Source of the DNA: an uncultured Acidimicrobiales bacterium
Lineage (GTDB): Bacteria; Actinomycetota; Acidimicrobiia; Acidimicrobiales; SHLQ01
Assembly: GCA_938040365.1 (NCBI GenBank)
Contig: CALHXU010000076.1
Location: 1 to 46,589, forward strand
DNA length: 46,589 nucleotides
Direction of reading: 5' to 3'
Shown: one piece after another, positions 19,976 to 35,751 of the stretch
How positions within the stretch are numbered: the first letter of the stretch is position 1
How the letters are laid out: every line of letters begins with the position of its first letter
Notes under the pieces: model-generated
Seen by the model: the letters and a program-made list of their open reading frames with translations, nothing else
What the model was told of the DNA's origin: nothing
Databases searched by the model: none
Translations under genes and position numbers: made by a program

Positions 19976-20713
19976 CTAGAGCAGGCGGACGAGAAGCGTG
20001 AGCGCGGAAACTGCGAGCAAGCCGATCACGAGATTTTCAAAGGCGGTAACCGAGATCCGTTCGCGAATGGCCGCGCCGATCGGAAGCGAGACCAGGCTCA
20101 GCGGTATGAGCGCGAGCCCGATCAGCAACGAACTCTGGGTGAAGAGATCGCCCGCTGCTGCGACGCCGAGCTGGCCGACTTGGGTCAGCGTAAAGAACGA
20201 AGCGATGGCAAAGATGAAGGTGTCCCGGTCGATGTCGACGGAGAGAAACCACGGAGTGACGACCGGGCCGGACACACCCGTTGCACCCTGAAAGACGCCA
20301 GCGACTCCGCCGACGAGCGGGGCGAAACGCTTCGCGGTTGGATCGGTCATGGTGAACGAGAAGCTGCTCAGCCGGTTGAAGAGGAAGGCGACCAAAATTG
20401 CAAAGAGAAGCAGGCGGAAGGCTTGCTCTGGGATGAGCGGCAGAACCAACGTGCCGACGACCGACCCAACGATGCCCGCAATCATGAAAACATTGAGCGT
20501 CGTTGCTCGCTCGCGGTGCTCTCGAAGCTTCCAGGCAATGCCGAAGTTGAGCACGAGGTTCGACGGGGCGATGATCAACACCGCATCGACCACGTCGATG
20601 ATCTGCGCAAGGATCGGCAGCATCAGCAGCGGATACCCAAACCCGGCAATCGACTTGATAACCGCGGCGAGACCAGCGATCACAAGGATGAGCAAGAACT
20701 GATCCGATGTCAC
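19976..20713 (-). CDS. TauE/SafE-family anion exporter
   Basis: Integral membrane protein of 245 residues with about eight hydrophobic segments and the paired glycine-rich family features (IKSIAGFGYPLLMLP near the N-terminus and GVFQGATGVSGPVV in the middle). Family members export sulfite, sulfoacetate and related organic anions. The frame stays open to 21037, but the GTG at 20713 is preferred because it overlaps the LysR stop as GTGA and puts the first helix directly at the start (TSDQFLLILVIAG). Coupling to a LysR regulator suggests inducible export of a specific anion. Confidence 0.9.
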   Translation of the reverse strand: MTSDQFLLILVIAGLAAVIKSIAGFGYPLLMLPILAQIIDVVDAVLIIAPSNLVLNFGIAWKLREHRERATTLNVFMIAGIVGSVVGTLVLPLIPEQAFRLLLFAILVAFLFNRLSSFSFTMTDPTAKRFAPLVGGVAGVFQGATGVSGPVVTPWFLSVDIDRDTFIFAIASFFTLTQVGQLGVAAAGDLFTQSSLLIGLALIPLSLVSLPIGAAIRERISVTAFENLVIGLLAVSALTLLVRLL

Positions 20714-21600
20714 GACTGCTTTCCATCGGCAGCGCTCGCATCGCCCATGAGCATTGCGGTGAACCGCCTCAGGGCCGCGGTAAGGGGGCGGTCGGTTCTC
20801 CACCCGAGGCTCAGCACCCGTTCGGCCAGTGGAACTTCGACCGCTCGCCGCAGCACGTGCGGTTCTCGTTCGGCGTCGACCGCTGGCAGGACTGTCCAGC
20901 CCATACCGAGGCGAACCATCTCGCAGAGAACTGCGGGCTGAGAACTCTCGGCGACGACGTTGACCGAAGCACCCCGTCGTTCGAGTTGGCGTGTTGCGAT
21001 GTGGCGCGTACGCGAGCCTGCGGGGAACCCGACCCATGGACCCCAGGTGTGCGGGCGCCCAATGCTCGTACCCGGTGGCGCATAGACAAACAATGGCTCA
21101 GACACGAGTGGCCGAAGTTCGAGGCCGTTCGACGTCGGCGGCGCAACCGCTACCACAACGTCGAGTTCACCAGCACTGAGCTGGTCGAAGAGGGCCGCCG
21201 AGGGGTCGACACTGAGCTGGACCGAAATCTCGGGGTGGATCGAGGCAAAGCGCACGAGCGTCTCGCCGAAGTGATGAACGGCGGCGGTGTCGGTCATCCC
21301 CGCGCGTATCTGTCCGGTTTCGCCAGTGCGGACCTCGTCGGCCCAACGGGCCAAGCCATCGAGTTCACCCAGAACCGCTCGAGCGTGGACGCTTGCTCGT
21401 ACCCCTTCTGGGGTCGGCACGCGCGAGCGACCCTCTTTGGAGAAGAGCACAATGCCGAGCCGTCGTTCGAGCTCCGCGATTCCCTGTGAGAACGCGGAGG
21501 TGCTTACGCCAAGCTCGCCAGCAGCCTCGCTCCAACCGCCGCGATCGATGGCGGCAACGAGATATGAGAGCTGGGTTGGCGAAGGGGTTTGCGAGGCCAC
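20710..21600 (-). CDS. LysR-family transcriptional regulator
   Basis: Regulator of 296 residues. The N-terminal winged helix-turn-helix (about 8-66: TQLSYLVAAIDRGGWSEAAG..., STSAFSQGIAELERRLG) is followed by a periplasmic-binding-like effector domain. It is translationally coupled to the TauE/SafE exporter, the most likely target, and diverges from ino1. The start is GTG at 21600. A 16-bp perfect inverted repeat lies 18 bp upstream of this start. Confidence 0.93.
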   Translation of the reverse strand: MASQTPSPTQLSYLVAAIDRGGWSEAAGELGVSTSAFSQGIAELERRLGIVLFSKEGRSRVPTPEGVRASVHARAVLGELDGLARWADEVRTGETGQIRAGMTDTAAVHHFGETLVRFASIHPEISVQLSVDPSAALFDQLSAGELDVVVAVAPPTSNGLELRPLVSEPLFVYAPPGTSIGRPHTWGPWVGFPAGSRTRHIATRQLERRGASVNVVAESSQPAVLCEMVRLGMGWTVLPAVDAEREPHVLRRAVEVPLAERVLSLGWRTDRPLTAALRRFTAMLMGDASAADGKQS

Positions 21601-21686: not shown

Positions 21687-22991
21687 ATGACTTCAGCACG
21701 CGAAATTGCACCCGCATCCGGAAAGCTCGGACTTCTTATGCCCGGCCTCGGCGCCGTGGCCTCGACCGTGATCGCAGGCGTTCTGCAATCGCGACAGACC
21801 GGCGAAGCCCCTCTGGGGTCGGTGTCACAGATGGCCCACATCCGCCTTGGCAAGCGCGAAGAAGGGCGCAACCCGCTCATCAACGAGTTCGTGCCACTCG
21901 CCGACCTCGACGACCTCGTCTTTGGCGGATGGGACCCCCTCTCACCGAACGCGCTCGAAGCTGCCCGCACCGCAGGCGTAATGAAAGATGGCGACCTCGC
22001 CGCAATCTCGGGCGAGCTCGAAGGCGTCGTAGCAATGGACGCGGTGTTCGACCAGAAGTGGGTCAGCCGTATCGAAGGCGTTCGCGTGAAATCTGAGACC
22101 AACAAGTGGGATCAAGCCGCAGCGCTCATTGCTGACATCGAACGCTTCCGTACCGAGAACGAATGTGACCGCCTCGTGATGGTCTGGTGCGGATCGACCG
22201 AGGCCTTCCAAGAACCATCGGCTGTTCACGCCTCGATCGAGGCGTTCGAGCAGGGGCTTAAAGATGATGATGACAACATCTCGCCAAGCCAGATCTACGC
22301 CTATGCGGCGCTGCTTAGCGGCGTCCCCTTCGCAAACGGCGCACCAAACCTCACCACCGACCTTGACTGCATCGTCGAACTCGCAAAGCGTGAGGGTGTG
22401 CCGATCGCTGGCAAGGACTTCAAGACCGGCCAGACGCTTATCAAGACGCTCATCGCTCCTGGCCTCAAGTCCCGCATGCTCGGTATCCGCGGCTGGTACT
22501 CGACCAACATCTTGGGCAACCGTGACGGTGAGGTGCTCGACGCACCGGAAAACTTCCAGACCAAAGAGAACTCGAAGCTGGGCGTACTCGACACGATCCT
22601 GCAGCCAGAGGTCTACCCCTCGCTCTACGGCAACATCGATCACAAAGTGCGAATCGATTACTACCCACCTCGCGGCGACGAGAAAGAAGGCTGGGACAAC
22701 ATCGACATCTTTGGTTGGCTCGGCTACCCAATGCAGATCAAGATCAACTTGCTCGCCCGCGACTCGATCCTTGCGGCGCCGATCGTCCTCGACCTCGCAC
22801 TCTTTATGGACCTTGCACATCGCGCCGGCGAGTCTGGTGTCCAAGAGTGGCTGAGCTTCTACTTCAAGGCTCCGCAAAGCGCGACGGTCAACGACCCCGA
22901 GCACGACATCTTTATTCAGCAAACCAAGCTGAAGAACACGTTGCGCGAATGGATGGGCGAAGTTCCCGTCACCCACTCAGAAGCCGGTTAA
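21687..22991 (+). CDS. ino1: Myo-inositol-3-phosphate synthase
   Basis: Converts glucose-6-phosphate to inositol-3-phosphate with NAD+, the entry to inositol lipids and mycothiol in Actinobacteria. At 434 residues it has an N-terminal nucleotide loop (GLLMPGLGAVASTVIAGV), the mid-protein VWCGSTE segment and the lysine-bearing GKDFKTGQT loop of the active site. NILGNRDGEVL and the KTKENSK-type region (NFQTKENSKLGV) fit the family. ATG at 21687. It is divergent from the LysR gene; the intergenic inverted repeat may affect it too. Confidence 0.93.
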   Translation: MTSAREIAPASGKLGLLMPGLGAVASTVIAGVLQSRQTGEAPLGSVSQMAHIRLGKREEGRNPLINEFVPLADLDDLVFGGWDPLSPNALEAARTAGVMKDGDLAAISGELEGVVAMDAVFDQKWVSRIEGVRVKSETNKWDQAAALIADIERFRTENECDRLVMVWCGSTEAFQEPSAVHASIEAFEQGLKDDDDNISPSQIYAYAALLSGVPFANGAPNLTTDLDCIVELAKREGVPIAGKDFKTGQTLIKTLIAPGLKSRMLGIRGWYSTNILGNRDGEVLDAPENFQTKENSKLGVLDTILQPEVYPSLYGNIDHKVRIDYYPPRGDEKEGWDNIDIFGWLGYPMQIKINLLARDSILAAPIVLDLALFMDLAHRAGESGVQEWLSFYFKAPQSATVNDPEHDIFIQQTKLKNTLREWMGEVPVTHSEAG

Positions 22992-23004: not shown

Positions 23005-23113
23005 GGACTCGGCCTCCGGCAGACCGCAGAGCACACCGAGCGAAGCGGATGTGCGATTGCGGCGAGTTACAGAGCACACCGAGCGAAGCGAATGTGCGAT
23101 TGTCGGCGAATTA
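23005..23113. repeat. Intergenic repeat pair plus dispersed core
   Basis: The core GGACTCGGCCTCCGG (23005-23019), also present twice in 1-271, is followed by two 43-44 bp direct repeats (23027-23069 and 23070-23113) starting CAGAGCACACCGAGCGAAGC and differing at only a few bases. The second copy runs into the stop of the sulfotransferase gene. There is no spacer between copies and only two units, so this is not a CRISPR. Confidence 0.8.
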
Positions 23114-23998
23114 GAGCCAGCTGAGGGTGCCTTCGGGGAGCATTTCGCGCAGCGCCTGGTTCGATGCGTCGAATACGTGGCCAAAGCGTTCACGGATTTC
23201 TGGGTCGACCGGGTCGTACTCGCGCTTGTTGTAGAGCGGGTAGTCCACGCCAGTCAGCGGAGGCAGCCCAAGAAAGTCGGTTGCTTTGCGAACAACGGCC
23301 TCGGGGTTTTCCGACATCTGGGACGAGTCCAAGACGAGCACGTTGTCGCTGCCAAAGAGATCGAAGTACCGCTGGAGCTGTTCGGCGTACTGACCGCGAC
23401 TGAGATATGCGTGGTGGATGTGCGGCAGTGAAATGTAGGTCGGGTCGGCACTGAGCTTTTCGACCTCGCCTTCGAGGCGACTCGGTTCGGCTTCAAACGC
23501 AGCTTCGAGGCCGAGCGTTTCGAATCCGCGCTTCGTCTCGTGGTTGTGATGCGAGATGGCACGATCCAACGGCTCTCGAAGAACGGCGAGTATGCGAGCG
23601 TTTGGGTTGACCGCATGGATCCGTTCTGGGATGAACGGGCTGAACAGGTAGTACGGAGCGCCCTCACCAACAGCTGGAGTCACCCCATGTTCTTTTTCTT
23701 GCGCGAGCAGTGTCGAGACACGAGGGAAGTTCCCTACGTACCAATCGAGCGACTTGTCGTAGTTGGTATCGAAATAGTGGACGCCCTTAGCCCGGCGCGG
23801 TCCGTGCACGAGCTCGTGGGAAAGCAAGTAGATGAATAGCGACGTCGTTCCGCCACGCTGGGTTCCAACGACATAAAAGTTCGGTACGGCTCGATCGGAG
23901 GGATCGAGCTGGCCGACGTTGCGGTTGACCCACACGTAGGCATCGCGAATTGGTTGGGGAAGCGCGGTTGCCTTCCCGAGCGCCTTACGCCCAATCAT
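23111..23998 (-). CDS. PAPS-dependent sulfotransferase (heparan-sulfotransferase-like)
   Basis: Sulfotransferase of 295 residues. The 5'-phosphosulfate loop is VVGTQRGGTTSLF (about residues 44-56) and the 3'-phosphate site is LREPLDRAISHH, arranged as in the carbohydrate (heparan N-/O-) sulfotransferase group. It probably transfers sulfate from PAPS to a glycan hydroxyl or amino group in the cytoplasm. It is the last gene of the EPS operon, and its ATG overlaps the previous gene by 14 bp behind a strong AGGAGG. It is the second sulfotransferase domain in the locus. Confidence 0.9.
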   Translation of the reverse strand: MIGRKALGKATALPQPIRDAYVWVNRNVGQLDPSDRAVPNFYVVGTQRGGTTSLFIYLLSHELVHGPRRAKGVHYFDTNYDKSLDWYVGNFPRVSTLLAQEKEHGVTPAVGEGAPYYLFSPFIPERIHAVNPNARILAVLREPLDRAISHHNHETKRGFETLGLEAAFEAEPSRLEGEVEKLSADPTYISLPHIHHAYLSRGQYAEQLQRYFDLFGSDNVLVLDSSQMSENPEAVVRKATDFLGLPPLTGVDYPLYNKREYDPVDPEIRERFGHVFDASNQALREMLPEGTLSWL

Positions 23999-25097
23999 CG
24001 AGCATCCTCCTCAAGGTCTCTTCGGTTTCCTTGTGACGGGGGGTGTCGAGCGCACCGGCTTCGTTGTGGCGCGCACACACCTCGAGTAAGTACATGATGT
24101 GCAGCAGTCGATGATGTGCCTGTGGGATTCCCTGTTCGGCGAGCTCGAGGGTCGCACCGCCAAAGCCAGAGCCATATTGGTAGTGCAGGTGCAACGCATC
24201 GAGGCCGGTGGGCACGCCCGACGTTGCGCGCTCCCAATCCCAGATCGCGAGTCGTCCATCTGAGGTTCGGCCGGTGTTCCACGGCGACCAGTCACCGTGC
24301 CAAGCCGAAACTTCAAGGGCGGCAAAGAACGGGTCGGCTATCACCTGTGAGATCGCAGAATTGAACAGTGGCTGCGGCTCGTCACCAAGCCGATCGCCGA
24401 GCTCTGCCCACCATGCTGACTCGCTGACGCTGGCGCCCTCGTGCACCCGTGAACGCAAGAACTCACGGAGGGTTTCGTTTGGCATTTCACCGATCGTCAC
24501 ACCGAGGTCATCGACGAGGTCGAGTGGAGCGGTTACGAGCAGAGCGCTGTCGCCGAAGGATCCATCGTGGAGCACCTCGGGTGTGACAACCTCGGGCAAC
24601 GGCGACTCCATAAGTGCCGACAACCAGACGGTTTCGTTCTCAACCATCTTTTTCGTGTGGGAATCAGGACCCAGCTTGGCGACCGCGACGAGACGGTCAT
24701 CGTTGTAGCACCGCACGATCGGCTTGAGGTTTGGTCGCGGCGGACCAACGGCGACCGAGAGTTGCACAGCGACGCCCAAGATCTCAGAGAGGTGCGAGCG
24801 GAGCGTTCCGACCGGGTCTGGCGAACGCACCGACCAATCGGCCTTTCGACGTGAGACGAGCGGCGAGAGTGAGCTGGCCATACTGCGAACCGTCGAGTTT
24901 GATGATCGAGAACTCGCCATTCGCTCGAGGGCGTCGCTCATTGCGACCCGACAGGCAACATCGACGACGACCCGGGGGCTGTTCGCACGCGGCAGGGCGG
25001 CATAACGCTCGGCCGAACCATCCTCGTCGCCAACGACGAGTGTTCCGGCGGGTCCAGTAAGAACTCTCTGCCACCAATCATGGCTCGTTGCGCTCAT
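23985..25097 (-). CDS. Phosphotransferase-fold protein (aminoglycoside/choline-kinase-like)
   Basis: Protein of 370 residues. Its C-terminal half has the APH-type kinase signature: WHGDWSPWNTGR (Brenner-like HGDxxxxN) followed about ten residues later by IWDWERA, the metal-binding DW(E) motif. An upstream KLGPDSHTKKMVENE region may supply the ATP lysine and its Glu partner. The first 95 residues are not recognisable. Within an EPS operon it may phosphorylate a sugar, nucleotide-sugar or glycan, but the substrate is not known. TGATG overlap of 1 bp with the preceding gene. Confidence 0.72.
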   Translation of the reverse strand: MSATSHDWWQRVLTGPAGTLVVGDEDGSAERYAALPRANSPRVVVDVACRVAMSDALERMASSRSSNSTVRSMASSLSPLVSRRKADWSVRSPDPVGTLRSHLSEILGVAVQLSVAVGPPRPNLKPIVRCYNDDRLVAVAKLGPDSHTKKMVENETVWLSALMESPLPEVVTPEVLHDGSFGDSALLVTAPLDLVDDLGVTIGEMPNETLREFLRSRVHEGASVSESAWWAELGDRLGDEPQPLFNSAISQVIADPFFAALEVSAWHGDWSPWNTGRTSDGRLAIWDWERATSGVPTGLDALHLHYQYGSGFGGATLELAEQGIPQAHHRLLHIMYLLEVCARHNEAGALDTPRHKETEETLRRMLDDWA

Positions 25098-26437
25098 CAG
25101 ACTGGCAACGGCGAGGAGAGCACCACCTCACGGCGAATATCGTCGTCGCGCCGATCACGGAAGAATACGGCGATGCAAATCATCATGATCGGCAGCGCTG
25201 CGGGGAGGTGGTCGTAGTAGAACATGGTCGGCAACGAAGACGCTACTGCTAAGTGCAGCAGTAGCTGTTCTTGGTTCCGAATTCTGCGACCGGTCTTGAA
25301 GGTCATCGTTACAAAGAAGCCGGTGTAGAAAATCGCACCCGGGATGCCTTGACTAAACAACGCAGTCCAAAAGTTTCCGTGGGTACCAATCGCTGGACGG
25401 AAGGGAATCGGATTCGAGACCGGCGCGCCATAGCCGAGGAGCGGAGATTCGGGTACCGCGTCGATCACCTGGGTGTAGATATCGCCGCGGGAGTTCGTCG
25501 AGTGGTCGGTCGTTGTGCGCTGACTCACGATGTCGCCGATCGGCGATGCAAGAAGGAGGCCACCGGCGATCACCAAGGCGACGATCAGGCGTCCAGCGAG
25601 CAACAGATTTCCCGTTGACACACGGCGGGCAGCGACGTAGACGACTGCGCCAACGAGCACGATCCACAGGCCACGATTTACCGATACCACCATCGGTACG
25701 ATGGCAAGAAGCGCGAATACCGGAACCAATGGGCGAGCCCGGCGGGTGCGTCCAGCGGCCGCTACCGCAGCGAAGGTAGCCGGTGCCAGCGTTGCTCCCC
25801 AGTCGTTGGAGAACGCGAAGGGAAAGCTCGGCCGATTGAGCGGAAAGCCGAGGAAGTCCTGCGTTTGGGCGAACGGCGGCTGGAAGATCGCGCGGACAAA
25901 GTCGATGTTCGCGATCGATCGAGGTAGCGCAACTGACGCCAACGTTGGGAACTTTGCCTCACCGAGCAACAGTCCGAGGTAGCCGCCCACAATCGCGGTG
26001 AAGAGAAAAAGATAGGCGATCATGCCGAGTATTCGCCCGGTCGGCAGGTACTTCGCTGGCAGGTTGTAGATGTAGAGGTAGATGATCGTGGCACCGATGT
26101 ATACACCAGCGCGCAACGTCCACGAGAGGAGGCGTGAAACAGTCGGGTCGAGCGTGACGGTCGAAACGATCATCCACCCAATAAAGAGGAACCAGAGACC
26201 GCTTCCCTTTGGGAAACGAATAGGTTTCATCGTCAAGAGCGAAATACCCATGGGAACCGCCGCGAGTGCGAACGTGAAGTACGCGAGGCCGAGGATCCAA
26301 AAGATCGGCATAAGGCCAATGACATAGAACGGCGCGGCAGGGTGGGTGAACAGCGAGAACTGCTTCCCAGGCCGCACACGCGTCCTTCGAAGTTCGGTCG
26401 ATACCCCAGCGGTCTCGATCGGATCAAGAATTGTCAT
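25097..26437 (-). CDS. O-antigen polymerase/ligase-like membrane protein (Wzy/WaaL family)
   Basis: Integral membrane protein of 446 residues with about ten to twelve hydrophobic segments. It has the large extracytoplasmic loop near residues 320-370 seen in Wzy/WaaL proteins, including RGDIYTQVIDAVPESPLLGYG and a histidine-bearing GTHGNFWTALFSQG. Such proteins polymerise lipid-linked repeat units or transfer glycan to an acceptor. Sequence alone does not separate polymerase from ligase. It is coupled by a 1-bp TAATG overlap to the glycosyltransferase gene before it. Confidence 0.82.
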   Translation of the reverse strand: MTILDPIETAGVSTELRRTRVRPGKQFSLFTHPAAPFYVIGLMPIFWILGLAYFTFALAAVPMGISLLTMKPIRFPKGSGLWFLFIGWMIVSTVTLDPTVSRLLSWTLRAGVYIGATIIYLYIYNLPAKYLPTGRILGMIAYLFLFTAIVGGYLGLLLGEAKFPTLASVALPRSIANIDFVRAIFQPPFAQTQDFLGFPLNRPSFPFAFSNDWGATLAPATFAAVAAAGRTRRARPLVPVFALLAIVPMVVSVNRGLWIVLVGAVVYVAARRVSTGNLLLAGRLIVALVIAGGLLLASPIGDIVSQRTTTDHSTNSRGDIYTQVIDAVPESPLLGYGAPVSNPIPFRPAIGTHGNFWTALFSQGIPGAIFYTGFFVTMTFKTGRRIRNQEQLLLHLAVASSLPTMFYYDHLPAALPIMMICIAVFFRDRRDDDIRREVVLSSPLPV

Positions 26438-27345
26438 TAGACAGACATTCCACGCTTTTGTAGCTGCGAAACAACGGTCGCCGACGGAACACCTGCAGCT
26501 ACTGACAGAGCAAGGCCAGCGCGGCCCTCCTTCGGGTTCAACTTGAGTGTCTTCTTCACAAGTTCAAGCGCGCCCTTACGATCCCCGAGCGATGCCTTCG
26601 CAAAGGCCATCTGGCCATAGATCCGAGCAAGACCGACCGGTTCGTTTTCGAACTCGGGATAACGATCGAGAATGTACTGAAGGCCGTCGATTCGCATCTG
26701 CCACCGCTCTGCGTAGAACGAGGCTGTATGCCAACGCACGCGAACGAGCGGGGCGGGCACCAACAACATGTCGGTCACTCGCGTTGCGCGCAGGAGCCAT
26801 TCGTAGTCCTCGCCGTAGCCGCCAGGCACATCCTCATCGATGAGGCCGATGCGGTCGGTGAGCTCGGCCCGGCGCATCAGGAAGGTCGACGGGTGCGCTT
26901 CAAAGACTCGGCTTTCGAGAAAATCGTCGAACGTGAGTCGCGATTCGTCGCGAACTCGTTCGACGCGTTCGTCCTCGTATTCGACAATGACGCCCGACCC
27001 AACAAAGTGGACGTCGGGGTTCGCATGCAGAACTTCGACCTGGCGACGAATTTTGCTCGGCACCCAAACGTCGTCGTCGTCACAAAAGGCAATGAGGTCG
27101 CTCTCGGTTGCGAGCATCCCGGTATTGCGGGCTCCTTGCAAACCTTGCTTTCGAGTGTTTGGCACGACGATGACGGGGCGATCCCCACCTTCGACGACGA
27201 GCGAGTAATCGGGCTCGGTGACGTCGAAGATCACGATGGTCGTAATGACGCCGTCGTAGTCTTGCGCAGCAATTGCGGCGAGCGTTTCGCGCAGAAGTTC
27301 GGGACGGTCCCGAGTAGCGACGATGGTGGCAACACTTTGCTGCAT
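26437..27345 (-). CDS. Family 2 glycosyltransferase
   Basis: GT-A fold transferase of 302 residues. The N-terminal beta strand (SVATIVATRDRPELLRETL) and the acidic DDD metal/nucleotide motif in LIAFCDDDDVW (about residue 87) are clear, followed by GGYGEDYEWLLRA with the GED catalytic-base-type motif. It should add a sugar from a nucleotide donor to the growing lipid-linked unit on the cytoplasmic face. The C-terminal 80 residues look helical (YGQMAFAKASLGDRKGALELVKK), resembling TPR-like repeats. It starts 4 bp after the fusion gene stop. Confidence 0.9.
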   Translation of the reverse strand: MQQSVATIVATRDRPELLRETLAAIAAQDYDGVITTIVIFDVTEPDYSLVVEGGDRPVIVVPNTRKQGLQGARNTGMLATESDLIAFCDDDDVWVPSKIRRQVEVLHANPDVHFVGSGVIVEYEDERVERVRDESRLTFDDFLESRVFEAHPSTFLMRRAELTDRIGLIDEDVPGGYGEDYEWLLRATRVTDMLLVPAPLVRVRWHTASFYAERWQMRIDGLQYILDRYPEFENEPVGLARIYGQMAFAKASLGDRKGALELVKKTLKLNPKEGRAGLALSVAAGVPSATVVSQLQKRGMSV

Positions 27346-27349
27346 TGGA

Positions 27350-28873
27350 CTACCCCTCTTTGCTGTAGCGATAGCGGCCCAGCATTGGACGGGTCACCGC
27401 GCTGACGAGCGACGCCATCTTTGGATCGAGGTCAGTCTTCCACTTTTCATCGACAGCGAGTTCCACCGCGGTCTTTTCGAGTCGGCGTGGGTTTCCTGAA
27501 ACCGAGTGACCCTCGCCGAGCATGAGCGGCTCATCACCAAACATTGCTTCGCTTGTCGACTCAAGCCCCACGAACTGAAAGATTTGATCGAGCGCCTCGA
27601 CCGGCTTCTTGACGAAGTCTTCGTATCGGATAGTCGTTGCCGGCACGCCGAGGCGTTCCATGTTGGAGAAGGCCCAGTTGAACCAGAGCCAACGCAGACC
27701 AATCCGGCCTGGATGGAGTCGGTCCATTTCGGCGCCGCCCTGCACCTCTGGACGGTCGATCACCTTCGACCAAGAATTTGCGACGCCACGGGGATCTCGA
27801 ACAATGTGGACGACGCGAAGGTCGACATCATCGAGTTGGCGGAGCAAGAGCGCCGTCGAAATGTGCTTCGACGTATCGACGATGATGGGCTTTTCGGAAA
27901 CTTCAAGAACGGCCCGCAAGATTCGGGTGACCACCGCGCCGTATTGGGTGATGCTCGGACCGACGAAGGGCAGGTTCTTCGAAGTCAAGAGCACAGGAAT
28001 ATGACGGGTGCGATCGACTCGTCGCTGCAATGTCCGCATGCGTTCGCCCGAGATCTGATTCCAGCCACCAAAGGCGATCTCACCGACCTTGTACCAGAAC
28101 TTGCAATCGCTAAATGGCTGACCGCAACCGCAGAGGTTGTTGTCGACTACGCCTCGCTGCCAAATATGTACGAGCTCGCCAATATTGACCATGTGCGGGT
28201 GCTCGTTGAGAAGGTCCGACATGATGGTGCTGCCAGAACGTGGGACCGACCCGATAAAGACCACGGGGATCTTGGGCAATTCCTCGGTTTCGTGCGCCTT
28301 ATCCGCAACGCCGTTGAGCGACCTCCGCGCCCGGGAGCCGAACAGCTCGACCATCAGCTCTTCGAACTTCATGACCGATTCTTCGGTATGTCCATCGTCG
28401 ACCGCAACCTCAGAAGCGCCGCGTTCGACCGCGAAGTCGAGCAGGCGAAAGAACTCGTCCTTCGTGCGGGCGAGTTGAATGTCACCATGGGCTGCGAGTC
28501 GTTCACAGAAGTCGACCTGGTGATCGTTGACGTGTTCGTCGAATCGTTCTTCACGAGGCACGACGATTGGAACCAAGCCGTTCTTTCGGCATTCCATGAT
28601 CGTTGCTGGTCCGCCGTGACAAACCACGACCGATGCCCGTTGAAACTCCTCGATCAATTGCGTGCGCTGCAAGTACTCGACACTGTGTGCGAGTTCCGAT
28701 GTAGCCGACGTCCCGCGCTGGACGATGACGTGGCCAACATTGCGGTCGACCGACATCCATTCGTCGAGCCACCAGATAAGACGATCGAAACGGTGGTAGT
28801 CGGTACCGACCGAGACAAAGAGCCGATCAATACCGGGAGCCCGGGACGCCGGGATTCTGATCATCTCGCTCAC
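27350..28873 (-). CDS. Fusion: PssE/Alg13-like glycosyltransferase domain + PAPS-dependent sulfotransferase
   Basis: Two-domain protein of 507 residues. Residues about 15-150 match the Alg13/PssE/MurG C-terminal (GT28) half: LFVSVGTDYHRFDRL and the donor-binding VVCHGGPATIMEC. After a linker of about 50 residues, a sulfotransferase spans about 203-500, with VFIGSVPRSGST (205-216) as the 5'-phosphosulfate loop and VHIVRDPRGVANSWSK as the 3'-phosphate site. The Alg14/PssD partner is encoded by the gene just before it, with a GTGA overlap. Alg13/Alg14-type enzymes work as a pair, so the complex would carry a sulfotransferase with it. The reading frame is continuous, with no sign of a frameshift. 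Confidence 0.88.
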   Translation of the reverse strand: MSEMIRIPASRAPGIDRLFVSVGTDYHRFDRLIWWLDEWMSVDRNVGHVIVQRGTSATSELAHSVEYLQRTQLIEEFQRASVVVCHGGPATIMECRKNGLVPIVVPREERFDEHVNDHQVDFCERLAAHGDIQLARTKDEFFRLLDFAVERGASEVAVDDGHTEESVMKFEELMVELFGSRARRSLNGVADKAHETEELPKIPVVFIGSVPRSGSTIMSDLLNEHPHMVNIGELVHIWQRGVVDNNLCGCGQPFSDCKFWYKVGEIAFGGWNQISGERMRTLQRRVDRTRHIPVLLTSKNLPFVGPSITQYGAVVTRILRAVLEVSEKPIIVDTSKHISTALLLRQLDDVDLRVVHIVRDPRGVANSWSKVIDRPEVQGGAEMDRLHPGRIGLRWLWFNWAFSNMERLGVPATTIRYEDFVKKPVEALDQIFQFVGLESTSEAMFGDEPLMLGEGHSVSGNPRRLEKTAVELAVDEKWKTDLDPKMASLVSAVTRPMLGRYRYSKEG

Positions 28874-29367
28874 ATCAACCGTCCGATCAATTCAGCCTTC
28901 GGGTGAAAAACCAACTGATCTTCCCATTGCACGAGGAAGCTACTTGCGAGGGGCGCGCACAAACGAGCGGTGAGCGACGCATGATCAATCCGGTCGTATA
29001 CCTCGATGAATACGGTCTTGATGCCCATCATTCGACCGAGCACAAAGAAAGGAAACGCGACCGCGGCACCGGTCGAGACAATGACGTCTGGACGTTCGCT
29101 ACGAAGTACTCGCAATGCAAGTCCCATGTTGCGAACCAGGTTTGGGATGTTGCGCGTCGTTGGGTAGTGCGCCCACTCACACCGCTCAGACTCGAGCAGA
29201 TCATGACTATCGGGCATATTGAAGGTCACCCAAAAGCGATCGTGTTTTTCCCACCATGACTTGAGCACCAAGAGGTGCGCGAGGTGACCACCCGACGAGC
29301 CAACGAGCGCGATCTTTAACGGCTGGTCTGACTCGGGCAAAACCGACACGATCGATTCGTTCGTCAT
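28870..29367 (-). CDS. PssD/EpsD-like (Alg14 homologue) glycosyltransferase subunit
   Basis: Protein of 165 residues of the Alg14 family (oligosaccharide biosynthesis). It has an acceptor-side Rossmann start, ALVGSSGGHLAHLL (about 20-33), then STGAAVAFPFFVLGRMMGIKTVFIEVYDR and a C-terminal FLVQWEDQ segment typical of bacterial PssD/EpsD proteins. It should recruit the Alg13-like domain of the next gene to the membrane to add a sugar. It lacks an obvious N-terminal membrane helix but has a hydrophobic central stretch. ATGA overlap with the co-polymerase gene upstream. Confidence 0.9.
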   Translation of the reverse strand: MTNESIVSVLPESDQPLKIALVGSSGGHLAHLLVLKSWWEKHDRFWVTFNMPDSHDLLESERCEWAHYPTTRNIPNLVRNMGLALRVLRSERPDVIVSTGAAVAFPFFVLGRMMGIKTVFIEVYDRIDHASLTARLCAPLASSFLVQWEDQLVFHPKAELIGRLM

Positions 29368-31307
29368 TTTGTCTCTCCGTCCGGTTCGGATCGGAAGAGT
29401 CCCTCGATGCTCGCGAATTTATCCATAGCGGGCTGACCCTCTCCGGGCGGTGGTTGGGTTACATACCCAGGTGCTTCCTGGTGGTTGGTTGCTCCCGCAG
29501 CCGCAGCCACTGCGTGCTGTGACTGTGTGCTTTGTTGTTCGGACTGTGAGGGGTTTTGCTGAGGATTGCTCGGACCGGCGGTTGCGTTTGAATACTCTTG
29601 CGGACCAGCTTGTGGCACCGCAGCATTACCGTTCACCGCAGCATTACCGTTCACCGCAGCTCCTGTTCCATTTACCGCAGCGCGATATTCGTCTGACACA
29701 AATGGGTTGCGCGACCCGTTCGCGACGTTGCCCGGAACGCCGGTCGGAATCGAAATCGTGGCGATGTCGCCGTAGCCCGCAGGCAGGAGGCTGAGACGGC
29801 TCGTTCGGTTGAATACAGCACCGGCGACGTAGGCCTGCACGTTGTCGAGCTGGCTGCGAAGTTCGTCGAGTTCGCTCCGTCGGCTTCGACCAGCGGCTGC
29901 GACGGCGAGGACCGAGTCGACCTCGGCGGCAATCTGAAGACCACCCGCATGGGTCAACGCTGGTGGCGTATCGAACACGACGATCATGTTGCGTTCCTTC
30001 GCCGCAGCGATGAGCGACTTGAGCGCAGCGCTCGATACCGAAACGTCCGCCCCTGTTCCGCTTGCGAACAAGCGAATTCCGACGCGCTGGCTTGCGTTCT
30101 CAATCGCGTGGTGTGCATCTGCAATGTCGGCCTTCGAGCGAAGGAAGTCGTTGAGACCTGGTTCGCCGACCATGCCAAAGATTCGATCGATGACCGGGTT
30201 ACGGCGATCGGTGTTCACGACCAAGACATCACGACCGGTCTGTGCGATTGCGAGCGCGAGGTTGATGGTGGTCGTCGTACGACCTTCGCCGTCATTGGCA
30301 CCAACGATGGCGATCGAGTTGACCTCGCCACCGGAGCGCTGTGCGAGGACCGCAGCAGCAACGCGACGGAATGCTTCGGCACCCGGTGTATGGGCACTAA
30401 CTGCGGTGACCAGCGCCGGGCTGTCTTGGGTAATTCGAGGAATATCACCGAGGATTGGGACGCCAAGGTCGGCTTCGAGTTCGTCGGCGCCGGCGACTCG
30501 CCGGTCGAGACGGTCGAGGGCAATTGCCACGACCGCGCCGAGCATGAGCCCGAGAAGGACGCCCGAAATAACTGCAAACAGGAACGGGATGCCGGTGCTT
30601 CCAGCTTCGGGAACCGACGGGGAGCCGAGCAGGCTACCTACTTCACTCGAACGGCTTCGAAGGTCGGTGAGTTGGCTAACGACGGTGAGCTTGGTGTCTT
30701 CGATGTCGCGAAGTCGACGCTCGATGAGTTCAGCTTCGAGCGAATCTTCTTCGGCGACGAGGAACGCAGCTCGCTCTGTAGCCCCACGCGTGTCGAGCTC
30801 TTCAACCTCGGCTTCGAGGTTTTCGATGCTCACAGAACGCAGCGCCTGCTCGCGGTCGCGGCGGAACTCAAGATAGGTATCGGCGGTGACGCTCACGACT
30901 TGTTCGGCCTGCTCTGGTGAGTCTGCCTGGAAGGTGAATTCCAAAATCTGACTGCTGCAGCTGTCGTTTGTGACGATGTTTTCCGCATTGAGACAGGCTG
31001 AAAGAAAGAGACCTTCGCTCCACTCATCGAGTGTGAGGTCCTCGACCTGGCTCACAACACGGTCGCCGATCACCTGGGAGACGGCAATGCCAATCTCGGT
31101 GTCCTCGTTGATGAGGTCGTTGCCTTGTTGGAGGTCAGAGTCGCCGGGCACCAAGAGCACCGACACGCTCGACTCATGAAATCTGCTCGCCGAGGGGAGC
31201 AACAAAATGGCCAGCAAAACGCCAACGACGGCGCCGATCGCTAGAACCCACCAGCTACGACGCAAAATTCGTCCGTAATTACCGAGCTCGATGTCATCAT
31301 CATTCAT
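29364..31307 (-). CDS. Wzz/Wzc-like polysaccharide co-polymerase with degenerate BY-kinase domain
   Basis: Protein of 647 residues, first gene of the EPS operon. A Wzz chain-length domain has two membrane helices (about 18-38 and 243-265) with a helical extracytoplasmic part between. A cytoplasmic CpsD/Wzc-like P-loop domain follows. Its Walker A is GANDGEGRTTTT, with Arg343 in place of the invariant Lys, and Walker A' reads VVNTDRRNP, with Asn365 in place of the first Asp. Walker B (VVFDTPP) is intact. The C-terminal tail (about 530-647) is Gln/Asn/Ala-rich with NGNAAV repeats and has no tyrosine cluster. It probably sets chain length without normal autokinase activity (inference). Confidence 0.87.
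   Translation of the reverse strand: MNDDDIELGNYGRILRRSWWVLAIGAVVGVLLAILLLPSASRFHESSVSVLLVPGDSDLQQGNDLINEDTEIGIAVSQVIGDRVVSQVEDLTLDEWSEGLFLSACLNAENIVTNDSCSSQILEFTFQADSPEQAEQVVSVTADTYLEFRRDREQALRSVSIENLEAEVEELDTRGATERAAFLVAEEDSLEAELIERRLRDIEDTKLTVVSQLTDLRSRSSEVGSLLGSPSVPEAGSTGIPFLFAVISGVLLGLMLGAVVAIALDRLDRRVAGADELEADLGVPILGDIPRITQDSPALVTAVSAHTPGAEAFRRVAAAVLAQRSGGEVNSIAIVGANDGEGRTTTTINLALAIAQTGRDVLVVNTDRRNPVIDRIFGMVGEPGLNDFLRSKADIADAHHAIENASQRVGIRLFASGTGADVSVSSAALKSLIAAAKERNMIVVFDTPPALTHAGGLQIAAEVDSVLAVAAAGRSRRSELDELRSQLDNVQAYVAGAVFNRTSRLSLLPAGYGDIATISIPTGVPGNVANGSRNPFVSDEYRAAVNGTGAAVNGNAAVNGNAAVPQAGPQEYSNATAGPSNPQQNPSQSEQQSTQSQHAVAAAAGATNHQEAPGYVTQPPPGEGQPAMDKFASIEGLFRSEPDGETK
29623..29658 (-). 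repeat. 18-bp perfect tandem duplication in the co-polymerase tail
   Basis: Two identical 18-bp units (GCATTACCGTTCACCGCA on the plus strand) encode the NGNAAV repeats. They keep the frame and lie in a low-complexity tail, so copy number may vary. Confidence 0.85.
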
Positions 31308-31564: not shown

Positions 31565-32803
31565 GTGAGAGTCAATTCCTTGGTTCAATCAAGACACTAC
31601 CGAACGCCTTGGACCAGAACCAGAGCATTTCGTGGGCCGTTAGTCGCATTGTTGGTCCTCCTTACGGCCTGTTCTTCGACGATTCCAAGTGCTTCCTCAG
31701 CGAACGCGAACGGCGATACCGGCGCACCGAATGCCGCTACCGCAGACGGCTCCGACTCCGACATTGCGGCGCTTCGAGCACGCCTCGCCGAGCTCGAAGC
31801 CGAAATTGCCGAGATCGAAGCTGACATTTCGAATCTCGCTGGGCAAGACCCGCAACCACCAGCCGGAGATGATGGCGGCGAACCAGCGGGGCAAAATCCG
31901 CAAGGCGCGAGGTTTCCCACCTCGCCACTCATCAACATCGACGCTGACCACGAAGGGGCATTGCTCGGCGTTTCAACCGGACTCACCGGCGCCGAGCGCG
32001 GACCGCGTTTCGAGGCTCTAGAGCAGGCTGCGGGCCGACAGCTCGACATTGGCCATGTCTTTCATTCATGGGATACCGCAATCCCGACCGAGGACGATTT
32101 GATGCACCTCGAGGACGGGCGAATTCTGATGATTTCGTGGAACGGGACCGACACGATCGAAATCCAGAACGGTCAACACGACGACTGGATCCGAACCCAA
32201 GCAGCATCGGTGCGCGATCTCGAACAGCCGGTCATGCTCCGCTGGCTCTGGGAGATGGATGCCAACCGCCGACGGGCGTGGGTGCATTCGGGTGAAGACT
32301 TCATTGCGGCGTGGCTCCATGTCCGTTCGATCTTTGACGAGGTCGGCGCCGACAATGCCGAGTTTGTGTGGTGTCCAAACGAGTTCTTGTTCTGGGACGG
32401 TGGCGATCCAACACCGTGGTATCCCGGCGACGAAAACGTCGACTGGTTGTGCGCTGACGGCTACAACTGGGCCGACTCGATCAATAGTCCCGAGTGGGTT
32501 GATTTCAACGACATCTTTGGCGACTTCTATGCATGGGCCGAACCCCGCGGCCTGCCGATCATCATTGGAGAAACCGGGTCGAACGAGGCGCTCGATGCTC
32601 CGCAAGGAAAGGCGAGCTGGTTCCGAAACCTCCCCGCGCTCCTCCAAAACGATCTTCCCGAGATCGACGCGGTGGTGTACTTCGACAAGGACTTTACGTT
32701 CCAAGGTCACGCCGATTGGCGAGTCGATACCAGCACCCCGGCGCGCAACGGTTGGAACCAGCTGGCGAACGACCCGTACTTCAATACGTTGACCAACGGC
32801 TAG
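31565..32803 (+). CDS. Secreted lipoprotein, GH26-like glycoside hydrolase
   Basis: Predicted lipoprotein of 412 residues. A hydrophobic stretch ends in the lipobox LLTAC (Cys36). A Ser/Ala/Asp-rich spacer and a short coiled coil (about 66-92, DIAALRARLAELEAEIAEIEADI) then present the catalytic domain outside the cell. The domain resembles GH26 (endo-mannanase/lichenase clan): Glu230 in LRWLWEMD as acid/base and Glu336 in IIIGETGSN as nucleophile. The substrate is unknown; the neighbouring EPS is a natural candidate. The assigned start is GTG at 31565 with poor Shine-Dalgarno spacing; TTG at 31580 is an alternative. Confidence 0.82.
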   Translation: MRVNSLVQSRHYRTPWTRTRAFRGPLVALLVLLTACSSTIPSASSANANGDTGAPNAATADGSDSDIAALRARLAELEAEIAEIEADISNLAGQDPQPPAGDDGGEPAGQNPQGARFPTSPLINIDADHEGALLGVSTGLTGAERGPRFEALEQAAGRQLDIGHVFHSWDTAIPTEDDLMHLEDGRILMISWNGTDTIEIQNGQHDDWIRTQAASVRDLEQPVMLRWLWEMDANRRRAWVHSGEDFIAAWLHVRSIFDEVGADNAEFVWCPNEFLFWDGGDPTPWYPGDENVDWLCADGYNWADSINSPEWVDFNDIFGDFYAWAEPRGLPIIIGETGSNEALDAPQGKASWFRNLPALLQNDLPEIDAVVYFDKDFTFQGHADWRVDTSTPARNGWNQLANDPYFNTLTNG

Positions 32804-32840
32804 CGCGAAAGGCCGCGCACGCAATCTGCCGGCGCTCTCG

Positions 32841-32860
32841 AGGGCGCTGATGGCCCTTTT
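32841..32860 (+). terminator. Weak hairpin plus T4 after the first GH26 gene
   Basis: AGGGC / GCCCT (5 bp, 7-nt loop) followed by TTTT, 38 bp past the stop. It is short, so partial termination or none is possible. Confidence 0.3.
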
Positions 32861-32933
32861 GGAGTGGTGACAGTGCCGTGAAAGAACTGCGCTGCTGTTG
32901 GCATGACGCCTCGCTATTGACTAGACCACTGTT

Positions 32934-33953
32934 ATGGTCAGTTACATTTCATTTCGCAAACTGTTCGTAATACTGGTTGGAATAAGTGCACTCACTGCGT
33001 TTTTTCTCTACTCAAACACCACTGCAGAGGCTCAAGCTAACCGCACTCCCACGATCGGTGCGTACGCTCAGCCGCTCGGATCTCAGAGCAATATCGACGC
33101 CGTTCTCGAACTTGAGGCGACGCTCGGCACGAAGCTTCCAATGGTGCGCGGGTTCAACAGATGGGAGGACAAAATCGGGCAGGACAAACCATTCCACCGA
33201 TTCGTTCGCGACGGGGGACGTGACCTGACCATCTCGGTGAAACCCGTTCGAAGGAACGGCGATGTTATTCCTTGGGCCCAGATTGCAAACGCACGGCCCG
33301 GCTCAGCGCTCTATGCCGACATGGTCCGGATGGCAGATGGAATTCGCCGATACGGCGAACCCGTGATCTTCAATTTCCATCACGAACCCGAACAGGGCAA
33401 GAACTCGGCCCATGGATCGTCAGCAGATTTCCGAGCAGCATTCCGCAGAATCCACAACATCTTCGATGCAGAAGGCGTGACAAACGTTCAGCACGCGGTG
33501 ATCCTCACCGAGTGGTCATTCGAGGTTGGCCGCTTTAACTCGAACGATCGTCGACGAGCCGAGCTTTGGTACCCCGGTGACGACGTCGTCGACATCATTG
33601 GCTCAGACGAGTACAACTGGAACAACTGTCGCAACAACTCGAGCGACCCATGGATTGACCTCGCCGAAGACATGGAACCGTTCTTGGCGTTTGCGAACCA
33701 GCACCCCGACAAACAGCTCATGCTCGGTGAGTTCGGATCCGATCGGGGCGCTCCCGGCGATAAAGCGCTGTGGCTTCGGCGGGCCCGGAAATGGTTCAAG
33801 AATTCGCCCGACGGCGACCGGTTTGTCGCCTTGCTCTACTTCCACGACGATGGCCGCCAAGAGGGCTTTCAACAATGCGAATGGTGGCTCGACACAAGTC
33901 CGGGATCAACCGCTTCTGCTCGGCTCTGGTTCAACGACCCAGACTTTCGATGA
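32934..33953 (+). CDS. Secreted GH26-like glycoside hydrolase
   Basis: Protein of 339 residues with an N-terminal signal sequence (FRKLFVILVGISALTAFFL, probable cleavage after AEA near residue 33) and no lipobox. The catalytic pair expected for GH26 is visible: Glu151 in FNFHHEPEQ and Glu266 in LMLGEFGSDRG. It shares the YPGD...VDIIGSDEYNW segment with the upstream lipoprotein (YPGDENVDWLCADGYNW), so the two are tandem paralogues, one anchored and one probably free. The ATG has no Shine-Dalgarno, and an inverted repeat GACCA-N6-TGGTC (32924-32939) spans it. Confidence 0.83.
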   Translation: MVSYISFRKLFVILVGISALTAFFLYSNTTAEAQANRTPTIGAYAQPLGSQSNIDAVLELEATLGTKLPMVRGFNRWEDKIGQDKPFHRFVRDGGRDLTISVKPVRRNGDVIPWAQIANARPGSALYADMVRMADGIRRYGEPVIFNFHHEPEQGKNSAHGSSADFRAAFRRIHNIFDAEGVTNVQHAVILTEWSFEVGRFNSNDRRRAELWYPGDDVVDIIGSDEYNWNNCRNNSSDPWIDLAEDMEPFLAFANQHPDKQLMLGEFGSDRGAPGDKALWLRRARKWFKNSPDGDRFVALLYFHDDGRQEGFQQCEWWLDTSPGSTASARLWFNDPDFR

Positions 33954-33984: not shown

Positions 33985-35751
33985 CTAGGCGCCGCCGAGA
34001 CTCGTCACGATCGTGCTGATCACGACGATCGACAACACTGACAACGGAACCCCGAGTCGCAAGTAGTCGGTGAAGCGGTAGCCGCCTGGCCCGTACACCA
34101 TGGTGTTTGTTTGATAGCCAACCGGGGTGAGAAACGACGCCGACCCAGCGACTGCGGCGCCCATCACCATCAGACGAGGATCAAGGCCAGATCGCTCCGC
34201 AACGTCGAGCGCGATCGGGAACACGAGCGCAACGGCGGCCGCGTTCGTGATCAGTTCGGTGAGGACCATCGTCGTGAGCACAACGCCAACGACCGCGCCG
34301 AAGGTTCCAGCGGAACCGACGCTGGTCAGCAACGTCGCCGAAATCTCGTCGGCGAGACCCGAATTCGATACGGCTTGGCCAAGACCAAAGGCGCCTCCGA
34401 TCATCAGCACGACGTTGACGTCGACCGCGTCACGCGCCTCCCTCGGGCGAAGGACGCCGGCTCCGACGAGCAGTATCGCCGCCATGATCGTGCTCCGGGT
34501 TACTGACATGACGTTGAACAGTGGGAGCGCAACGACGAGCGCTATCGCGGCCCATGCCCAGATCGACTTTGATGAGGCGCCCGACATCTCGGCATCGAGG
34601 CGCGAGACGAGGAGGAACTCACCCGAATCACGCCACCGGGTACGAAACCCCTTCTCGGCAACGACGAGCAAGGTGTCACCGGTACGAAGTCGAGCAGTGC
34701 CGAGTTTCCCGGCCAACTGTTCGCCGCTGCGATGGACCGCCAAGATCGCGCCGTTGTACCGTTGACGGAATCCAACCTCGGCGGGAGTACGACCCGCAAG
34801 CGGCGAACTCGGCCCAACCACGACCTCGAAGAATGCAACGTCGTGATTAGCGTGCAACGCATCGAGCGCGTCAGATTCGGCTGCAGCCAACCCCGAGATG
34901 CCCTGCAGGTCGACAACGTCGTCCACGCTGCCTGCAAAGACGAGCGTGTCGCCTCCGCGCAGCGTCTGTGTGGGGCGAACCGGCGCAATAACGCGCCCGG
35001 GACGTTCTACCTCGACGAGGTACACCCCGCTCAGCGATCGGAGTCCAGCACCTTCAACCGACGCGCCATCGACGGCGCCTCCAACTTCCACGCTCATCCT
35101 CACCGTAAAGGAACGTCCCGCTTCGGCCTTGCGCGGGCGGCGCCGCTCGGGCAACACAATCGGGGCGAGCACCACGATCAACACGACGCCAGCCAGCGCG
35201 AGTGGAAGGCCGATCTTCGCCAGCTCGAACAACCCCAAGGCACCCAGCCCTTCCTCTTCGAGAAGACCTGAAGCAACGAGGTTTGTCGACGTTCCAATTG
35301 CGGTGACCGCACCGCCAAAGATCGTCGCGTACGAAAGCGGAATCAAAAAGGTCGACGCGCTCCTCCCCTTCTCGTCTGCCCACCGGGTTACCGCAGGGGT
35401 GAGCATTGCAACGATTGGCGTGTTTGCGAGGAACGCACTCCCGAACGACGCCGGGACGACGAGTCGGACAAGATCGAGGCGAACCGCACGCGGTTCCGCG
35501 AGCACCCGCGAGACGAGGGGCTGAAGCGCACCAGTCTTTTCCACCGCACCGGCGATCACATAGAGGCCAGCGACCGTTATCGGCGCGGTGTTCGAAAATC
35601 CCGAGAACGCCTCGCTGGCGGTCGTAACGCCGAGAACATAGAGCAACGCTGCTGATCCAATGATGCCAGCGGGCGGAGAAACCAGCCCGCGAACGAGCCC
35701 CACGACCATGGCCGCTAACACCAAGAGTGTGATCCATCCTTCAACTGACAT
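33985..35751 (-). CDS. SLC13/DASS-family permease with two RCK_C (TrkA-C) domains
   Basis: Membrane transporter of 588 residues. Two blocks of hydrophobic helices are separated by a cytoplasmic part (about 200-370) holding two TrkA-C-like domains (SLSGVYLVEVERPGR...GGDTLVFAG and NGAILAVHRSGEQLAGKLG...GDTLLVV). The paired family motifs GTSTNLVASGLL and TNAAAVALVFPIAL for sodium and anion binding are present. Relatives carry sulfate, di/tricarboxylates or other anions. Sulfate would fit the PAPS-using operon nearby, but this is inference only. It is separated from rpoC by a strong terminator, so it needs its own promoter. ATG start. Confidence 0.9.
   Translation of the reverse strand: MSVEGWITLLVLAAMVVGLVRGLVSPPAGIIGSAALLYVLGVTTASEAFSGFSNTAPITVAGLYVIAGAVEKTGALQPLVSRVLAEPRAVRLDLVRLVVPASFGSAFLANTPIVAMLTPAVTRWADEKGRSASTFLIPLSYATIFGGAVTAIGTSTNLVASGLLEEEGLGALGLFELAKIGLPLALAGVVLIVVLAPIVLPERRRPRKAEAGRSFTVRMSVEVGGAVDGASVEGAGLRSLSGVYLVEVERPGRVIAPVRPTQTLRGGDTLVFAGSVDDVVDLQGISGLAAAESDALDALHANHDVAFFEVVVGPSSPLAGRTPAEVGFRQRYNGAILAVHRSGEQLAGKLGTARLRTGDTLLVVAEKGFRTRWRDSGEFLLVSRLDAEMSGASSKSIWAWAAIALVVALPLFNVMSVTRSTIMAAILLVGAGVLRPREARDAVDVNVVLMIGGAFGLGQAVSNSGLADEISATLLTSVGSAGTFGAVVGVVLTTMVLTELITNAAAVALVFPIALDVAERSGLDPRLMVMGAAVAGSASFLTPVGYQTNTMVYGPGGYRFTDYLRLGVPLSVLSIVVISTIVTSLGGA

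Follow-up and report, generated by a model that had tools for sequence, protein, structure and literature searches.

A conserved seven-gene operon for a probably sulfated exopolysaccharide in an uncultured Acidimicrobiales bacterium

The window, i.e., the whole analysed stretch of 46,589 nucleotides from an uncultured Acidimicrobiales bacterium, carries a compact operon which, judged by its sequence, probably directs a Wzx/Wzy-route exopolysaccharide whose lipid-linked unit would be sulfated in the cytosol, probably phosphorylated as well, and then exported. This assignment draws on the genes and their order, their conservation in relatives, the intact motifs of the encoded proteins and the PAPS synthesis pathway of the genome. 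The seven genes, from the first to the last of the operon, and their two neighbors are the following:

29364..31307, minus strand: Wzz-like co-polymerase and BY-kinase-like ATPase in one protein, opening the operon (profile matches, EGRT motif)
28870..29367, minus strand: PssD, the Alg14-like half of a bipartite glycosyltransferase (NCBIfam NF041549)
27350..28873, minus strand: fusion of a PssE-like domain (residues 1-180, approximately) with a PAPS sulfotransferase domain (approximately 195-507) (profiles, motifs, model)
26437..27345, minus strand: GT2 glycosyltransferase (profile match, 1e-18)
25097..26437, minus strand: Wzy-type polymerase (Wzy_C)
23985..25097, minus strand: kinase of the APH/choline-kinase fold, extended by an additional N-terminal region (predicted fold, catalytic residues)
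23111..23998, minus strand: heparan-sulfate-type sulfotransferase, last gene of the operon (Sulfotransfer_1, 1.2e-13)
31565..32803, plus strand: GH26-like lipoprotein, divergent neighbor and probable polymer-trimming enzyme (CtLic26A, 1.3e-21)
32934..33953, plus strand: second GH26-like secreted protein (CtLic26A, 1.5e-14)

The seven ORFs (23111-31307) lie on the same strand and, as read from the sequence, either overlap or stand 4 nt apart. In detail, the overlaps are of 4 nt at the co-polymerase/PssD (ATGA) and PssD/fusion (GTGA) junctions, of 1 nt at GT2/Wzy (TAATG) and Wzy/kinase (TGATG), and of 14 nt between the kinase and the last sulfotransferase, with the 4-nt gap located between the fusion and GT2. 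The sequence-only reading, which had proposed a single seven-gene transcriptional unit with neither flippase nor priming transferase, is borne out by these junctions and by the gene order kept across relatives. The operon was found in 16 of the 19 genomes of the family, i.e., in 15 genomes besides the window's own, mostly in the same order, a presence that exceeds chance. Eleven of the 16 loci show seven genes in the window's order (in one of them the co-polymerase is cut by the contig end), two are cut by contig ends with a visible part in agreement, two represent a six-gene version without PssD and without the PssE half, and one (L065) is rearranged. These genomes are MAGs of 67-96% completeness, which weakens every absence call made from them. 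Scans for promoters (1 promoter-like site against 2.1 expected) and terminators (15 terminator-like sites against 7.8 expected, all 15 within the seven genes) were uninformative.

Under the proposed route, the unit would be started by a priming transferase encoded elsewhere, which would transfer a sugar-phosphate to undecaprenyl phosphate. PssD, together with the PssE part of the fusion, would then attach the second sugar, with a UDP-sugar as donor (that of GlcA or Gal, by precedent in the family), and GT2 would attach the third. The PssE-tethered and the separate heparan-sulfate-type sulfotransferases would sulfate the lipid-linked unit before flipping, because PAPS is cytosolic, and the APH-fold kinase would probably phosphorylate this unit or one of its groups. 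A flippase from elsewhere in the genome would move the unit out for polymerization by Wzy. The co-polymerase would control chain length independently of tyrosine phosphorylation, and trimming of the polymer may fall to the secreted GH26-like proteins. Within the family, the GH26-like lipoprotein gene is found near the operon in loci of the window's genus only, and such a gene is present in 10 of the 31 distant loci.

The co-polymerase has a significant AAA_31 match (4.7e-7) and a sub-threshold one to the Wzz Pfam family (16.2 bits; cut-off 25.5), and its position and conservation fit a role in chain length. In its Walker A motif Arg replaces Lys, and all 16 family sequences read EGRT there; their C-terminal 120 residues contain 0-3 Tyr and no Tyr cluster. 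An assignment as a BY-kinase of the Wzc/CapB type was rejected, with TIGR01007 at 78.4 against a cut-off of 108.05 and both the Walker A Lys and the Tyr cluster missing. PssD matches Alg14/PssD (7.4e-11), exceeds the NF041549 cut-off (114.6 bits; cut-off 110) and has an intact GGH motif. The polymerase of the Wzx/Wzy pathway is provided by the Wzy_C protein (1.6e-11; 44.7 bits, cut-off 31.7), and five PF02397 transferase genes located elsewhere in the genome are candidates for priming.

The fusion protein contains Glyco_tran_28_C at residues 63-128 and Sulfotransfer_3 from residue 203, and its model matches in fold both sulfotransferases with bound PAP and the half of a UGT that binds UDP-glucuronic acid. 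The PssE half scores under its cut-off (NF041548, 61.5 bits; cut-off 120) and keeps the HGG and EHVxDHQ motifs, so it may work like PssE though it is not filed as such. These motifs are shared with bipartite glycosyltransferases of the PssD/PssE, Cps14F/G and WelK types (NCBIfam); the window's PssD passes the PssD cut-off, whereas its PssE half differs from them in score and in being fused to a sulfotransferase. In relatives, PssE and the sulfotransferase are found as separate neighboring genes, and both PssE-sulfotransferase and sulfotransferase-GT2 fusions also occur. The PssE motifs are lost in two sister genera and the whole half is gone in two further genera, the sulfotransferase half being retained in the sister genera while the PssE half decays. 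The PssE-sulfotransferase fusion may have one origin or several, its tree having an unfixed backbone, a bootstrap short of convergence and a junction of two long branches. A plasmid search with the fusion matched 116 records, in none of which a match extended over 80% of the query, and a literature search on PssE with sulfotransferase matched only a mass-spectrometry review.

A further, tentative reading, possible but taken as a whole rather doubtful, is that PssD and the fusion form one complex which adds a sugar and then sulfates it on the lipid carrier. As parts of the same tentative reading, the motif-less PssE half of the sister genera would be kept as a scaffold for the sulfotransferase, and the dedicated kinase would turn the product into a sulfo-phospho polysaccharide, a class not described for Actinobacteria in any of the papers retrieved.

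Both sulfotransferases keep the residues of the PAPS site (5'-phosphosulfate and 3'-phosphate motifs) invariant in 13 of 13 sequences, in agreement with the two independent PAPS-binding domains noticed earlier. PAPS synthesis is encoded in the window's own genome by a cysDNC locus (G000:C245), where CysD, CysN and CysC all score above cut-off. No PAPS/APS reductase was recognisable in the 11 genomes (MAGs) of the window's genus; CysH is found in 0 of these 11 against 5 of the 8 other family genomes. PAPS genes adjoin related clusters in Nonomuraea gerenzanensis, L206, L210 and L212. Of the 50 relatives' loci, only 4 have such genes on the stretch retrieved; among the 15 family relatives there is none, with one weak CysN-like match in L066. 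APS kinase was dismissed as a discriminating marker, since every one of the 29 genomes with the kinase has a match to it (G453 by fragments only).

The window's kinase has no significant Pfam match and its predicted model shows the choline-kinase/APH fold; a Pfam APH match was obtained for only 3 of 13 kinase members, the window's not among them. Its six catalytic residues are kept in 46 of the 46 alignment rows with letters at those positions. Of the earlier proposal of phosphate on the glycan, the kinase fold and catalytic residues stand and make it plausible, phosphorylation itself being a prediction from them. The protein differs from LicA choline kinase and APH-fold kinases (8-18% identity) by its extra N-terminal region, its lack of a Pfam APH match and its place in polysaccharide clusters. 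It was rejected as a marker of sulfation and is not specific to it, because 11 of 31 distant kinase loci show neither of the two sulfotransferase types at the thresholds used; rather, it is the mark of a broader Wzx/Wzy system in which these sulfotransferases are often missing. A looser check of these loci added one weak match in L128 to the known one in L129, and L212 has another sulfotransferase of the PF00685 type. The survey left out seven genomes with weaker kinase matches, and 4 of the 25 non-family matches (G502, G530, G555, G558) were left out of the examined set.

Some clusters share the kinase-Wzy-flippase core and lack both sulfotransferase types, which would suit an ordinary Wzx/Wzy exopolysaccharide with "sulfotransferases" that have lost their sulfation activity or have a target other than the polymer. 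This reading is improbable in view of the invariant PAPS sites and of the sulfotransferase half that outlasts the decaying PssE half. About equally improbable is a reading of the Wzy_C protein as a ligase, under which the operon would yield a short sulfated oligosaccharide for attachment to protein, lipid or cell wall. The Wzy_C family includes ligases as well as polymerases, and three related clusters are adjoined by proteins of the LytR-CpsA-Psr type, which links glycopolymers to the cell wall; against a ligase, the co-polymerase is first in the operon in each of the 16 family loci that show its gene and is present in 23 of 31 distant loci.

Export in place of a Wzx flippase by the ABC pair at 6097-8313, as the sequence-only reading had envisaged (Wzm/Wzt), is highly improbable. 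The pair lies in the same window, 15 kb from the operon, and none of the 11 genus genomes (MAGs) has the flippase usual in such clusters. However, both ABC genes are near the operon in only one of 15 family relatives' stretches (L064), a count limited by the short reach of many stretches beyond the operon. A search for a Wzt C-terminal domain gave none, the operon has a Wzy, and a MOP-type flippase is present in related clusters. An alternative, unrelated MOP flippase is present in 10 of the 11 genus genomes, in the window's own at G000:C57. The own PF01943 flippase was rejected as an orthologue of the cluster flippases (best E only 0.08).

To our knowledge, sulfated polymers of this kind have long been thought rare in bacteria, and a sulfated capsule has reportedly been found in Cobetia. 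Literature searches returned no paper joining Acidimicrobiales, sulfated and exopolysaccharide, and for Acidimicrobiia with sulfotransferase only two works, unrelated by title. In passages of two papers, sulfated polysaccharides in bacteria are called exclusive to cyanobacteria (PMC8205485, PMC13390465). The operon belongs to a deeply conserved actinobacterial gene set tied to PAPS synthesis, and may bear on granular sludge, where sulfated glycoconjugates are described with makers not yet known (PMC10483923, in the part cited).

Judged on gene content, the closest published relative is wps-1 of Actinoplanes missouriensis (2026), for which sulfation is predicted and a sporangium phenotype is described (PMC13390465). 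As far as its described gene content goes, wps-1 shares two different sulfotransferases (one of heparan-sulfate type), a kinase-like protein, Wzy, Wzz, GT2 and GH26, and is adjoined by an APS-kinase gene. Of the two, only wps-1 has a WecG-type GT, a flippase, a methyltransferase and DUF4262, whereas the window's operon has PssD and the PssE-sulfotransferase fusion, not described for wps-1 in the cited part, and no flippase. Synechan (xss) of Synechocystis, whose product was shown to carry sulfate, is similarly of Wzx/Wzy type with two sulfotransferases of distinct subfamilies, but has eight glycosyltransferases and its own flippase; the cited passages mention neither a PssE fusion nor a kinase of the window's type (PMC8205485). 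In Vibrio sp. KMM 8419, where a sulfated product is proven, sulfotransferases and PAPS genes accompany the capsule cluster, described in the cited part as using the ABC-transporter route in contrast to the window's Wzy (PMC11641403). The cluster of N. gerenzanensis (NZ_LT559118.1) includes homologues of the window's kinase, Wzy, Wzz and fusion-type sulfotransferase, the last without the PssE half, and likewise a heparan-type sulfotransferase, GT2 and GH26. Unlike the window's operon, it also contains cysD, cysN, an APS kinase, a CysQ-like gene, a flippase, a WecG-type GT, a third sulfotransferase and a priming transferase. This sequenced species is one in which sulfation is directly testable.

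The seven genes, proposed by the sequence-only reading to be compactly joined, are all real, and the sequence places them with very tight spacing. On the minus strand they follow the order co-polymerase, PssD, PssE-sulfotransferase fusion, GT2, Wzy, kinase and sulfotransferase, and are best read as an operon that probably directs a sulfated polysaccharide of the Wzx/Wzy type. The surroundings of the operon are as follows:

19976-21037, minus strand, TauE/SafE-family permease
21687-22991, plus strand, myo-inositol-1-phosphate synthase, in convergent orientation to the last gene of the operon
31565-33953, two GH26-like secreted proteins, divergent from the operon and 257 bases away
33985-35751, minus strand, CitMHS/Na_sulph_symp permease with two TrkA-C domains (127 bits, under the DASS cut-off of 198.6)

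Both GH26-like proteins align with lichenase CtLic26A and keep two Glu positions, presumably the catalytic residues. The CitMHS/Na_sulph_symp permease adjoins the GH26-like genes in six loci of the genus; it could be a sulfate importer serving the operon, or mere synteny of the genus. The synthase adjoins the operon also in genus loci L059, L060, L061, L064 and L065.

The order expected in related genomes was recovered in 11 of 16 family loci. Two more are consistent with it but cut by contig ends, two have only six genes because they lack PssD and the PssE half, and in L065 the co-polymerase is relocated and the kinase and Wzy are swapped. Among the 19 family genomes, the full-length fusion is found in 14 (own genome counted) and the sulfotransferase half alone in two others (G006, G008); G007 gave only a weak PssE match, and no fusion match was found in G012 (85% complete) or G015 (67% complete).

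The two sulfotransferases are unlike each other. The last-gene enzyme resembles heparan-sulfate 3-O- and N-sulfotransferases (best match the bacterial-type sulfotransferase 3rnl, 8.3e-20; 3-OST-1, 1.1e-14), and residue E112 falls at the position of the Glu that serves as their catalytic base. Both the sequence and the fold of the fused enzyme resemble those of tyrosylprotein and olefin-synthase sulfotransferases, the fold comparison resting on a predicted model of mean pLDDT 74. For each of the two, the residues of the PAPS-site motifs are invariant in 13 of 13 sequences.

The sequence-only reading had also proposed a search for PAPS synthesis genes. The own genome (3.6 Mb, 277 contigs, 90.7% complete) carries adjacent cysD, cysN and cysC, each over its NCBIfam cut-off, with a CysQ-like gene alongside (115 bits, under the cut-off of 228.8). 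APS kinase is present in 18 of the 19 family genomes. CysH reductase occurs in five of the eight family genomes outside the genus, all five over the PRK02090 cut-off, and was found in none of the 11 genomes of the genus (67-96% complete). Weak extra matches in genus loci L159, L177 and L183 look like GMP synthase from their N-terminal sequence, a judgement by eye that covers these three among the genus's weak matches. Single absences mean little, since the genomes are incomplete and CysD was also not found in one of them (G017), but the eleven taken together are telling. PAPS is therefore made in the genus without visible reductive use. Two counterweights to this argument exist. APS kinase matches were obtained in all 29 kinase-bearing genomes tested (fragments only in G453), regardless of whether their clusters include sulfotransferases, and PAPS genes lie in the fetched stretch of only four of 50 relatives' loci (L130, L206, L210, L212) and of none of the family loci.

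In f10, a family of the same taxonomic order (L119, L203, L204, L205), the genes of the fusion's relatives lie on one strand as PssD, PssE, sulfotransferase, GT2, Wzy, kinase, sulfotransferase, flippase and co-polymerase; PssE and the sulfotransferase overlap in different frames and thus are separate adjacent genes. Flippase and co-polymerase position aside, this is the gene arrangement of the window as it stood before fusion. Further PssE-sulfotransferase fusions are found in L123, L126 and L134, and a sulfotransferase-GT2 fusion in L121. Both PssE motifs, HGG and EHVxDHQ, are preserved in the window, in the aligned genus rows except L065 (QGG), and in all 25 loci that their record titles assign to other phyla (one is labelled 'bacterium' only). 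In related clusters they are recognisable but slightly changed, with L119, L123 and L124 deviating. All five fusions of genera g2 and g3 have lost them, and their PssD partner likewise has no GGH motif. In the window's genus the PssE half is 80.1% conserved versus 74.2% for the sulfotransferase half (28 pairs), whereas in g3 the values are reversed, 58.0% versus 84.3% (three pairs). PssD and PssE are absent from g4 and g6, and the tree places these two together with the fused g2 row. The motif loss, the reversal and these absences indicate decay of the glycosyltransferase half, with the sulfotransferase half retained. A separate locus of G014 (L074, contig C371) has a distant fusion-type sulfotransferase, a priming transferase, a co-polymerase and a weak flippase match, perhaps for a second sulfated polymer.

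The flippases of the distant clusters are mutually homologous (31-43% identity), and no homology to the own PF01943 protein was detectable. Their profile matches strongly in all eight family genomes outside the genus, and only weakly and partially in three of the 11 within it. In G001 and G008 the flippase gene immediately adjoins the operon, and the copy of G007 has one internal stop. The own type is strong in ten of the 11 genus genomes, weak in three of the eight outside and missing from the other five. A fair guess from these matches is that the flippase was swapped in the window's genus, but only a single tree branch, and hence one event, is concerned; in addition, G012 and G015 have the own-type flippase, and the operon was not found in them. 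Also encoded on the contig of the own-type flippase (L131, G000:C57) are an apiosidase-like protein and a large surface protein with repeats of the SdrD_B/SpaA type.

Cyanobacteria are known to make sulfated polymers of the Wzx/Wzy type, synechan among them (PMC8205485), and one is predicted for Actinoplanes (PMC13390465, in part). The present analysis adds the PssE-sulfotransferase fusion and its decay, the conservation of the kinase, the lack of a visible reductase and the distribution of the two flippase types. The Nonomuraea gerenzanensis cluster (L130, NZ_LT559118.1), unannotated and with genes called in this analysis, spans ~18 kb and contains a PUA/APS-kinase protein, TauE, GH26, Wzz, Wzy, the kinase, a heparan-sulfate-like sulfotransferase, a flippase, a third sulfotransferase, a WecG-type GT, GT2, a fusion-type sulfotransferase without PssE, cysN, cysD, a CysQ-like gene and a priming transferase. 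Its TauE gene lies beside the APS kinase. This content is close to wps-1 of Actinoplanes missouriensis, as far as the consulted sections of PMC13390465 describe it. According to these sections, sporangium formation was disturbed when any one of the following was deleted: the heparan-sulfate-type sulfotransferase, the kinase-like gene, Wzy, Wzz or the adjacent gene for sulfurylase/APS kinase. Without the other sulfotransferase, sporangia were normal in shape but spore release was lower. Its authors regard the sulfation as still awaiting proof (PMC13390465).

In the ATPase domain of the co-polymerase, all 16 family sequences have Arg where the Walker A motif calls for Lys, and a C-terminal Tyr cluster was not found in these; tyrosine autophosphorylation would thus not be expected. 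In three related clusters that are without the two sulfotransferases, a LytR-CpsA-Psr protein is encoded next to the co-polymerase or close by, hinting at attachment of the polymer to the cell wall:

L206, 132-1301, LytR-CpsA-Psr protein
L208, 1853-3394, LytR-CpsA-Psr protein
L217, 15054-16664, LytR-CpsA-Psr protein
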